In this document: positions 3,863 through 47,517 of the stretch, piece by piece
Layout: every line of letters starts with the position of its first letter
Numbering within the stretch: position 1 is the first letter of the stretch
Source of the DNA: Paenibacillus senegalimassiliensis
Lineage (GTDB): Bacteria; Bacillota; Bacilli; Paenibacillales; Paenibacillaceae
NCBI RefSeq assembly: GCF_001486585.1
Contig: NZ_LN909046.1
Coordinates: 1,860,001-1,924,000 of the forward strand
DNA: 64,000 bases
Direction: 5' to 3'
The notes under the pieces: model-generated
Seen by the model: only the letters and a program-made list of their open reading frames with translations
Database searches by the model: none
Told to the model about the DNA's origin: nothing
Position numbers and translations under genes: made by a program

Positions 3863-3973
3863 TTTACCCTTCCTTTACCCACGTTTTTTCCTTGTATTGG
3901 ACATTTTCTTTTTAAAACGATTATAATTAATTTTGAACCAATAATAAATCTATCAAATTAGGAGGATATGTAC

Positions 3974-4567: not shown

Positions 4568-4993
4568 CTACATGTTGGACGATGTCTTGTGAGCGGCCAG
4601 CTTCTTGTCCAGAACCGCAAACAATTGCTGAATATTACGGTAATTGGCTCCCAGATCGCCCATAGAGCCCCGCGTGGCCGAGTAGATGTCCACTGCGCTG
4701 CGAACAGGTCCCGTAGATACAATGGACACCGTAATATCCATAACGCGTCCCAGGCTGGTCCGCTTCTCCAACGTAATCTCCCCTACCGAAGCCACCTCAT
4801 GCAGCACCTTGTAACCGGGAATTTTCTTCAAAGTAGAGGATACTTCCTCCCATAGCTTCTCACGGGATAATTGATAATACCTTGTCTTCAATTCGGGCAG
4901 CTTCGCACGGTCGCTGGTCCCCTCCTGGCTACGAAAAATGCCAGCTAACGTTCTCTTCAGTGACAACGATTCTTCCTCCTTCATGTCCTTCAA
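4568..4993 (-). CDS. DUF1499-like conserved protein
   Basis: 141-residue soluble protein without a signal peptide or membrane segment. The C-terminal half contains RSAVDIYSATRGSMGDLGANYRNI, which resembles the RS.SR.G..DLG.N..RI signature of DUF1499 proteins. The N-terminal 40 residues are charged. The molecular function of the family is not established. The start has GGAGGAA just upstream. It is convergent with tpx. The family assignment is by motif recall only. Confidence 0.6.
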   Translation of the reverse strand: MKDMKEEESLSLKRTLAGIFRSQEGTSDRAKLPELKTRYYQLSREKLWEEVSSTLKKIPGYKVLHEVASVGEITLEKRTSLGRVMDITVSIVSTGPVRSAVDIYSATRGSMGDLGANYRNIQQLFAVLDKKLAAHKTSSNM

Positions 4994-5078: not shown

Positions 5079-5129
5079 ACAAAAAGCGCCTTGTCCTTCC
5101 TTGGGGCTGCCAAAGAAATACAGGGCGCT
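5079..5129 (-). terminator. Terminator of the probable 6S RNA
   Basis: An outer stem AGCGCC/GGCGCT encloses an inner hairpin (TTCTTTGG with CCAAGGAA) and is followed by TTTTT on the minus strand. It isolates the RNA from the DUF1499-like gene downstream. Confidence 0.75.
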
Positions 5130-5333
5130 ACTTGAGAAACTTGGATAAAGACCCGCCTATGCCGTCCGGTTACATTGTCTCGAACCTGCATTAGCAGGTG
5201 GGTGACCGCAGCGACGCTTTTGAAGTCCCCACATCACTTGGATAGGGCAGTTCAGCTACGAGGCGATTAGGTCTCCCGAGACATCGTCATTGGTTCAAAA
5301 CAACATAGAACCGAAACGTACATCGCAGGACGT
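5080..5333 (-). ncRNA. ssrS: Structured stand-alone RNA, probable 6S RNA
   Basis: Non-coding transcript of up to about 254 nt with its own promoter (TTTACA-N17-TATAAT) and terminator. Visible pairings are: closing stem ACGTCC near the 5' end with GGACG at 5167-5163; CGGTT with AACCG; an inner stem GGGAGACC with GGTCACCC; and a local hairpin ACCTGC-TAAT-GCAGGT in the 3' strand. This gives the 6S layout of closing stem, large central bubble with a small 3'-side hairpin, and apical arm. GTTTTGAACC lies about 33-42 nt from the 5' end, close in position and sequence to the product-RNA template that I recall for Bacillus 6S-1. 6S RNA sequesters sigma-A RNA polymerase. The core fold would end near 5160, leaving a tail before the terminator. 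No coding frame is credible here. Confidence 0.6.
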
Positions 5334-5339
5334 AAACCC

Positions 5340-5368
5340 ATTATAAGACTTTGTTAAGTAAATGTAAA
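5340..5368 (-). promoter_or_regulatory. Promoter of the probable 6S RNA
   Basis: A -35 TTTACA (5368-5363) and a perfect -10 TATAAT (5345-5340) with 17-bp spacing face the RNA gene. The predicted start is near 5333. Confidence 0.75.
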
Positions 5369-5390: not shown

Positions 5391-6194
5391 TCAATCTTTT
5401 TCTTTCTGTTCATCCGCTGGCAAATCCAGGGCCATATCCTCGTCTTCCTCGGCTTGGCTATTAGCCGAATCCTCTTCGGACTGACGCATTCTTTCCACTT
5501 TCTCCTGAATCTTGTTATAGGCGATGTAGAAGTTGTAGAAAGCTACCACCGATGTCAAGCTGCCGAACCCAAAGAAAATGAGCCAGCCGTAACGCATGGT
5601 CAGGAAGCCCAGAAACCCAGCGCATAGCAGCGTGGATATCGTCCGGAATGGACGAAGGATTGTGAACAGAATAGCATTCTTGATCAACTGAAACGCCCCC
5701 AGATGGTAGTGAGCCACAAGGGAGAAGAAATTGAACAAGGACAAGGACAGCAACAACAGGAAGAACAACATCACCATCCCGATGATTTGCAGATTATCCA
5801 TCTGCGTCATGTATACCCGGTAATCCACATACATAATGACAAATAGCAAGGTATAGAAGATACCGCCAATCATGCTTTGCTTGTAATTTTCCTTATAGCC
5901 CTTGAAATAAACCTTGATGATGCTAAGGTCACCTTCCCCCATCACCCATTTACGGGTTACAGAGAACAGCGCTGCCGTAGCAGGAAATAGTGTAAACGGT
6001 GCCAAAATGCCCATGATCCAGATGGACAACGTTTCTGGCGGAGGTGTTGGTGTCTGCAGCAACAAGAGCACCTTCATTGCCAGAACCAGCATAAATGGCG
6101 ACGAGCATAGCAGCCATAGTAAGTTGCTTCCGGAAATCCTCATAATCCATTCGGTAATTCTATAAAATCCGCCCATAAAACCTTTGTATTCCAA
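5391..6194 (-). CDS. DUF624 (YesL-like) membrane protein
   Basis: 267-residue polytopic membrane protein. The N-terminus FMGGFYRITEWIMRI is typical of DUF624/YesL proteins. Five or six hydrophobic segments occupy about residues 20-220, and a strongly acidic cytosolic tail (QSEEDSANSQAEEDEDM) ends the protein. The function of the family is unknown; many members lie near sugar transport genes, but none are next to this one. The start is TTG at 6194-6192, set by AGGAG eight bases upstream. The 6S RNA promoter begins about 20 bp past its stop codon, so this gene reads towards that RNA. Confidence 0.78.
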   Translation of the reverse strand: MEYKGFMGGFYRITEWIMRISGSNLLWLLCSSPFMLVLAMKVLLLLQTPTPPPETLSIWIMGILAPFTLFPATAALFSVTRKWVMGEGDLSIIKVYFKGYKENYKQSMIGGIFYTLLFVIMYVDYRVYMTQMDNLQIIGMVMLFFLLLLSLSLFNFFSLVAHYHLGAFQLIKNAILFTILRPFRTISTLLCAGFLGFLTMRYGWLIFFGFGSLTSVVAFYNFYIAYNKIQEKVERMRQSEEDSANSQAEEDEDMALDLPADEQKEKD

Positions 6195-47281: not shown

Positions 47282-47362
47282 GTAGGTGGAACAACTAAAT
47301 TATTCAGGGATCGGGTGCTTAAGACAGCAAAAAAGAACGGTATCGCTACCGTTCCTCCTGGA

Positions 47363-47435
47363 TGGACCCTCAGGGACTCGAACCCTGGACAAATAGATTA
47401 AGAGTCTACTGCTCTACCAACTGAGCTAAGGGTCC
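47363..47435 (-). tRNA. tRNA-Lys (anticodon CTT)
   Basis: A 73-nt cloverleaf: acceptor GGACCCT/AGGGTCC with discriminator A, D-arm AGCTCAGTTGGTAGAGC, anticodon arm TAGAC-TCTTAAT-CTA giving CTT, and T-arm CAGGG-TTCGAGT-CCCTG. The CCA end is not encoded. Confidence 0.95.
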
Positions 47436-47444
47436 ATAATATGG

Positions 47445-47517
47445 TGGAGCCTAGGGGGATCGAACCCCTGACCTCATCGCTGCCAGCGATGCGCTCTCCC
47501 AGCTGAGCTAAGGCCCC
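47445..47517 (-). tRNA. tRNA-Ala (anticodon GGC)
   Basis: A 73-nt cloverleaf: acceptor GGGGCCT/AGGCTCC with the G3-U70 wobble that identifies tRNA-Ala, discriminator A, anticodon loop CTGGCAG giving GGC, and T-arm AGGGG-TTCGATC-CCCCT. It lies 9 bp upstream of the tRNA-Lys and probably shares its transcript. CCA is not encoded. Confidence 0.95.

Follow-up and report, generated by a model that had tools for sequence, protein, structure and literature searches.

The window analysed here is a 64,000 nt stretch of DNA from Paenibacillus senegalimassiliensis, and within it a 6S RNA gene lies between a DUF624 gene and a DUF1499 gene, with all three genes on one strand. 6S RNA holds RNA polymerase idle as growth slows, and a gene for this small RNA is expected in most bacteria. 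The features of the locus, in the direction of transcription, are as follows:

5391-6194, minus strand: upstream neighbour, DUF624 gene (Pfam PF04854)
5363-5368, minus strand: -35 element of the 6S promoter, TTTACA (promoter scan; conserved in Paenibacillaceae loci)
5340-5345, minus strand: -10 element of the 6S promoter, TATAAT (promoter scan; conserved in Paenibacillaceae loci)
5146-5334, minus strand: 6S RNA core, model positions 1-187 (Rfam RF00013, 77.4 bits)
5289-5301, minus strand: predicted template of the product RNA (pRNA), with the pRNA start opposite U5289 (alignment to the B. subtilis 6S-1 pRNA)
5278-5291, minus strand: 5' side of the central bubble, without pairs in the consensus structure (fold of a 34-sequence alignment)
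5184-5199, minus strand: 3' central-bubble hairpin ACCUGC-UAAU-GCAGGU (ACCTGY-n-GYRGGT in 34/34 aligned rows)
5081-5129, minus strand: intrinsic terminator, with hairpin 5129-5085 and T-run 5085-5081 (folding, -23.3 kcal/mol)
4568-4993, minus strand: downstream neighbour, DUF1499 gene (Pfam PF07386)

The original prediction had described a stand-alone structured RNA, probably 6S, and had proposed a scan with the Rfam 6S covariance model as a check. In Rfam release 15, RF00013 (6S RNA, SsrS) matches 5334-5146 over its full length with an E-value of 1.6e-13 and a score well over the family's cut-off of 46.4 bits, and it is the sole family above cut-off at the locus. Together with the covarying pairs found in relatives (see below), this match bears out the 6S identity and rules out a chance resemblance or a non-6S identity. 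The gene belongs to a known family and is within reach of a standard Rfam scan, and we hold it to be nearly certain that 5334-5146 is an ssrS-type 6S RNA gene working by the general 6S mechanism. It shares with the RF00013 family the full-length covariance match, the closing stem, the central bubble, the apical stem and the template site, and we found no defining difference, although the window transcript adds a separate terminator hairpin. A title search of the literature, conducted without most subscription journals, returned no work devoted to Paenibacillus 6S RNA.

A whole-genome search found no second RF00013 copy in the window's genome at an E-value of 0.001 or better. Exactly one match per genome was likewise found in 40/40 genomes of the same genus, in 98/98 genomes of the family, and in 149/149 genomes sampled from the order, these samples being overlapping and each including the window's genome. 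The family and order searches used stricter filters that can miss weak matches, so a weak second 6S copy in the order may have been overlooked; 6S-1-type copies elsewhere were detected with those same filters at scores of up to 113.8 bits.

Promoter, terminator and transcript

The sequence TTTACA-17-TATAAT at 5368-5340 on the minus strand scores 11/12 against a sigma-A-type promoter. Since only one promoter-like site was found near the 6S locus while shuffled sequences give a mean of 2.3, the motif by itself is no proof of a promoter, and its support comes from conservation: the -10 element TATAAT is present in 76/76 Paenibacillaceae 6S loci, the spacer is 17 nt in 73/76, and the -35 element reads TTTACA or TTTACT in 69/76. 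The near-perfect sigma-A promoter of the original prediction holds for the score and for TATAAT, whereas the -35 element reads TTTACA and not TTGACA. This departure from TTGACA is conserved alongside the invariant TATAAT and might have a regulatory role. A TTT directly follows the -35 element in 62 of the 69 TTTACA/TTTACT loci.

From the position of the -10 element, the 5' end of the RNA is likely A5333, which gives an inferred transcript of 253 nt (5333-5081, minus strand). No ORF of at least 80 aa overlaps it, in agreement with the non-coding transcript of about 250 nt framed by promoter and terminator that had been predicted, and the strand and coordinates given at that time were also essentially correct. 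The primary transcript is probably trimmed to a rod of about 190 nt.

The same prediction had called a 3' tail of about 80 nt unusual, which is a point that did not survive. Only 65 nt (5145-5081) lie 3' of the Rfam core, made up of a 16-nt linker, the terminator hairpin and the T-run. The hairpin is absent from the list of a simple scan restricted to loops of 3-8 nt and is revealed by folding. In 30/30 same-genus loci, the window's included and all drawn from the 40 genomes searched, a terminator hairpin begins 10-20 nt past the core, and we accordingly discarded the idea of an unusual tail or new domain in favour of an ordinary intrinsic terminator. Across the family, 57 of 76 loci pass the hairpin scan and 19 fail it. 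As a count of loci with a terminator hairpin, 57 is a minimum, since visual inspection shows a clear hairpin and T-run in some of those that fail (e.g., L048). In several of the loci that fail (L033-L035, L038, L044, L056, L058, L219, L220 and L223), a T-run comes directly after the 6S closing stem, which raises the possibility that the rod itself terminates transcription or that the RNA is cut from the DUF1499 mRNA.

The order DUF624-6S-DUF1499 is kept, on the same strand, in 80/80 loci of named relatives, which were picked on DUF624; the nearest named relative among those fetched is P. sanguinis, whose DUF624 protein is 91% identical. This constant position upstream of DUF1499, along with the 19/76 loci without a separate terminator by a scan that missed some visible hairpins, would suit a different reading in which the RNA is not 6S at all and belongs to the DUF1499 gene as a structured leader or small RNA of another kind. 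We consider that reading very improbable, given the full-length Rfam 6S match, the 6S-type covarying fold described next, and the RNA's own promoter and terminator in the window. The 6S RNA may be co-transcribed with DUF1499 in some relatives.

Conserved fold and product-RNA template

The fold was examined in an alignment of 34 relatives, hand-chosen from the fetched loci, which yields a consensus structure of 50 pairs. Across this alignment 96.9% of cells are paired, compared with only 38.5-52.2% in a slid-partner control, a figure that is favoured by the consensus structure having been built from the very alignment on which it was scored. The double changes are strong independently of this: both partners have changed in 16 of the 50 pairs, in 111 cells, a level reached in 0/500 shuffles. 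The folding energy of core plus terminator is -94.3 kcal/mol, whereas shuffled versions average -75.5 (z -3.87), with 1/200 shuffles at least equal. The closing stem, the helix GUUUUGAACC/GGUUC..GAGAC, the central bubble and the apical stem match the 6S plan, and the long-range pairings of the 6S layout that had been proposed from the window sequence are thereby upheld. Within this plan, the helix GAACC/GGUUC is invariant in 34/34 aligned rows. The consensus fold retains three pairs of the 3' bubble hairpin plus GGUUC/GAACC, and the GGU of that hairpin also takes part in the helix formed with the template.

The putative template GTTTTGAACC is found at 5301-5292 on the minus strand, where it had originally been placed. 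Its proposed likeness to the 6S-1 template holds to the extent that it resembles 6S templates generally, but the trees described below favour the 6S-2 side, though not decisively. The pRNA start had been put at 5292, and alignment to B. subtilis 6S-1 moves it to 5289, three bases earlier. According to the available text of PMC12005410, the B. subtilis 6S-1 pRNA reads 5'-GUUCGGUCAAAACUA; aligned on its CAAAAC block, the pRNA of the window RNA is predicted to read 5'-AUUGGUUCAAAAC over 5289-5301. An identical 13-mer is predicted in 68/76 Paenibacillaceae loci, and TTTTGAACC is present in 75/76 of their 6S cores. The first letter of the predicted pRNA is A in 74 of the 76 loci and G in the other 2. 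With the start set three bases after AACC via the 6S-1 alignment, GG falls at pRNA positions 4/5 in all 76 loci, which fits the rule, as worded in the accessible part of PMC8414754, that 6S product RNAs carry GG at positions 4/5 or 5/6.

We compared the template start base across 111 aligned 6S RNAs. It is C, so that the pRNA would start with G, in 31/33 rows of 6S-1 type and in 28/28 rows from other classes, and it is T in 23/24 Paenibacillaceae rows and in 19/26 rows of 6S-2 type, where the alignment is less sure. A change of the initiating nucleotide from G to A is thus predicted for the Paenibacillaceae pRNA. The B. subtilis 6S-2 pRNA reportedly also starts with A, and the start base is said to affect pRNA yield in B. 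subtilis. 6S-1 and 6S-2 template pRNA at different efficiencies, per the portion of PMC4211561 available. The template motif was dropped as a lineage marker, since GAACCAAC is also read in some 6S RNAs from other classes and the motif alone is not diagnostic.

The gene, its fold, the covariation, and the conservation of promoter and template are all observed here, and on these a mechanism can be proposed by analogy with the 6S family. The rod would mimic an open promoter, its central bubble would bind sigma-A RNA polymerase, and the bound enzyme would be kept from sigma-A promoters. On the return of nutrients, the polymerase would take as its template the bubble's 5' side together with the helix next to it, and the short product RNA, with the predicted start given above, would open the template helix. 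The freed GGU may then complete the ACCUGC/GCAGGU hairpin, whereupon the RNA would refold and release the polymerase. We infer this last switch, and polymerase binding, pRNA synthesis and release are expected from membership of the family. In B. subtilis 6S-1, the 3' bubble hairpin is described as stabilised in the pRNA hybrid (PMC8876501, available text). Going by the predicted start base, release of the polymerase from the window 6S RNA would be initiated with ATP.

Lineage of the single 6S copy

At least two 6S matches were found in 37 of 151 genomes sampled from the class, and both copies were fetched from 21 of the 37. In an earlier tree, 20 of these 21 genomes contributed one copy to a group A and one to a group B, and in the remaining genome (G161; L182 and L183) both fetched copies were B-type. 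The groups were named after seeing a first tree. The exact B. subtilis 6S-1 (bsrA) template occurs in 5 fetched loci, all A (they represent three distinct genes, as two were fetched twice), and the letters that we take to be the B. subtilis 6S-2 (bsrB) template occur in 7 fetched loci, all B-type. We refer to A as the 6S-1 type and to B as the 6S-2 type.

The Paenibacillaceae are represented in the trees by 24 of the 76 loci. Four rows (L158, L164, L167 and L289) were left out of the counts because the slicing of the sequences presumed loci of full length. From the tree without an outgroup onward, L228 (place unclear), L171, and the single-copy rows L257-L260, L262, L263, L265 and L268 were also left out. 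The thinned tree further omits L142, L166, L169, L210, L211, L256 and L266 (thinning), L195 and L177 (long branches), L298 (identical in sequence to L296), and L284 and L286, whose templates appeared 6S-2-like. L195, L177, L284 and L286 were put back in the restored-row trees.

Three placements of the window RNA can be considered: on the 6S-2 side, as an orthologue of 6S-1, or as a lineage older than the duplication that produced both. The thinned tree separates A and the other-class rows from B and the Paenibacillaceae at 100/100. In the restored-row tree the B side again holds the Paenibacillaceae, now with the other-class row L286, at 91/97, and the same side is recovered at 86/89 once the template columns are removed. 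In the tree without other-class rows, A forms one side at 100/99. Supports in the thinned and restored-row trees are rough, because the bootstrap was unsettled there. The Paenibacillaceae lie inside B in the earlier tree and beside B in the thinned tree; their rows are split, by two changes, in the no-outgroup, thinned and all-column restored-row trees and form one clade, at 98/94, in the template-free tree. A clade joining the Paenibacillaceae with seven B rows is neither demonstrated nor rejected in the thinned set (p-AU 0.581), and the same is true of a clade of B, Paenibacillaceae, L284 and L286 with the rows restored (p-AU 0.408). Seven alignment columns unite the Paenibacillaceae with B against A, and one column unites them with A against B. 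The position of L286 (G428, from another class) on the 6S-2 side hints that both lineages may predate the class.

If the window RNA were instead the orthologue of B. subtilis 6S-1, i.e., the same gene moved away from rarA and drifted, acting as a canonical stationary-phase 6S RNA, it should sit with A. Trees joining the Paenibacillaceae with A are 26-29 log units worse, but with p-AU values of 0.148 (thinned) and 0.0896 (restored rows) they are not rejected; the corresponding AU test without an outgroup gave no information, because both splits fit one unrooted tree. Raw identity was discarded as a lineage test, as the mean identity of the window RNA is nearly equal to A (0.542), to other-class RNAs (0.541) and to B (0.550), and does not separate the lineages. 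The template A after CC (column 52) is common to most A-type and not to most B-type rows, which also speaks for 6S-1. Against it stand the splits described above, the template start T shared with most B rows in place of the C of most A rows, and the genomic position. In the accessible part of PMC8414754, 6S is reported to adjoin rarA in lactic acid bacteria; rarA lies within about 2 kb of 3/4 A-type loci tested, the fourth having no rarA in the stretch fetched, whereas rarA (C15:49560) and the window 6S gene (C15:1865146) are about 1.8 Mb apart. We consider orthology to 6S-1 unlikely, though still to be taken seriously. Also unlikely, and a shade more so, is that the order's RNA diverged ahead of the 6S-1/6S-2 duplication and has been retained as one ancestral copy. 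The AU test does not reject trees in which B makes up one side by itself (p-AU 0.585 without outgroup; 0.301 with restored rows), and B alone, with the Paenibacillaceae beside it, is the best thinned topology (22/88). Such an early split is opposed by the joint separation of B and Paenibacillaceae from A and other-class 6S RNAs, with the exception of L286, and by the start base, which is C in A and other-class rows alike and is something other than C in 23/24 Paenibacillaceae rows.

Overall there is good, if not decisive, support for the window RNA lying on the 6S-2 rather than the 6S-1 side, and this placement, made from sequence comparisons, is probably correct. Less certain is the fuller reading that the RNA descends from the 6S-2 branch, that the 6S-1 branch is absent from the order, and that release is keyed to ATP. 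We would give even chances to the proposition that the whole order (Paenibacillales) is without a canonical 6S-1 and has its polymerase controlled by a single RNA of 6S-2 lineage, with release set by ATP and not GTP. Relative to B. subtilis 6S-2, the window RNA shares the tree position on the side of the B-type copies, and its predicted pRNA shares the A start and GGUU..AAAAC; it differs in a template reading GAACCAAU where 6S-2 presumably reads AACCUUU, in being the single detected 6S RNA of its genome instead of one of two, and in its neighbours. It has the same overall layout as B. subtilis 6S-1, as well as the CAAAAC block of the published pRNA (PMC12005410, available text), but its pRNA is predicted to begin with A and not G, and its locus is away from rarA.

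An attempt to link the paralogues by gene neighbours, using tblastn of ten window proteins and rarA against 24 long loci, failed. The DUF624 and DUF1499 neighbours are absent at an E-value of 1e-5 from 20/20 B-type or single-copy comparison loci; among A loci the search returned rarA in three, and among B loci it returned weak DEAD-box matches in two and a weak rarA-like match in one.

A deletion of 6S-2 has reportedly been given a biofilm phenotype in a later paper than the 2020 review (PMC7430163), whose available text describes B. subtilis 6S-2 as still without a known function. In view of that review, the lineage result would matter if true: members of the order would be naturally occurring organisms with 6S-2 alone, allowing its role to be observed directly. 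They would show whether the 6S-2 type, which is less enriched than 6S-1 on sigma-A polymerase according to the accessible part of PMC11077062, can act as an organism's principal 6S RNA, and whether ATP has replaced GTP as the release signal, the latter affecting 6S-1 pRNA synthesis in B. subtilis (PMC8876501, available text). It is a mild surprise that the order's single detected copy looks closer to the minor Bacillus 6S-2 than to the well-studied 6S-1, and the lineage and start-base results add modest extra interest to an otherwise ordinary 6S gene.

Elsewhere in the window, the AT-rich sequence ATTATAATTAATTTTGAACCAATAATAAA at 3919-3950, just upstream of a redoxin gene (3968), repeats letters of the 6S template; the likeness is probably due to chance, though the sequence might belong to a promoter or operator. 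Genes for tRNA-Lys (ctt) and tRNA-Ala (ggc) are adjacent at 47359-47517 on the minus strand.
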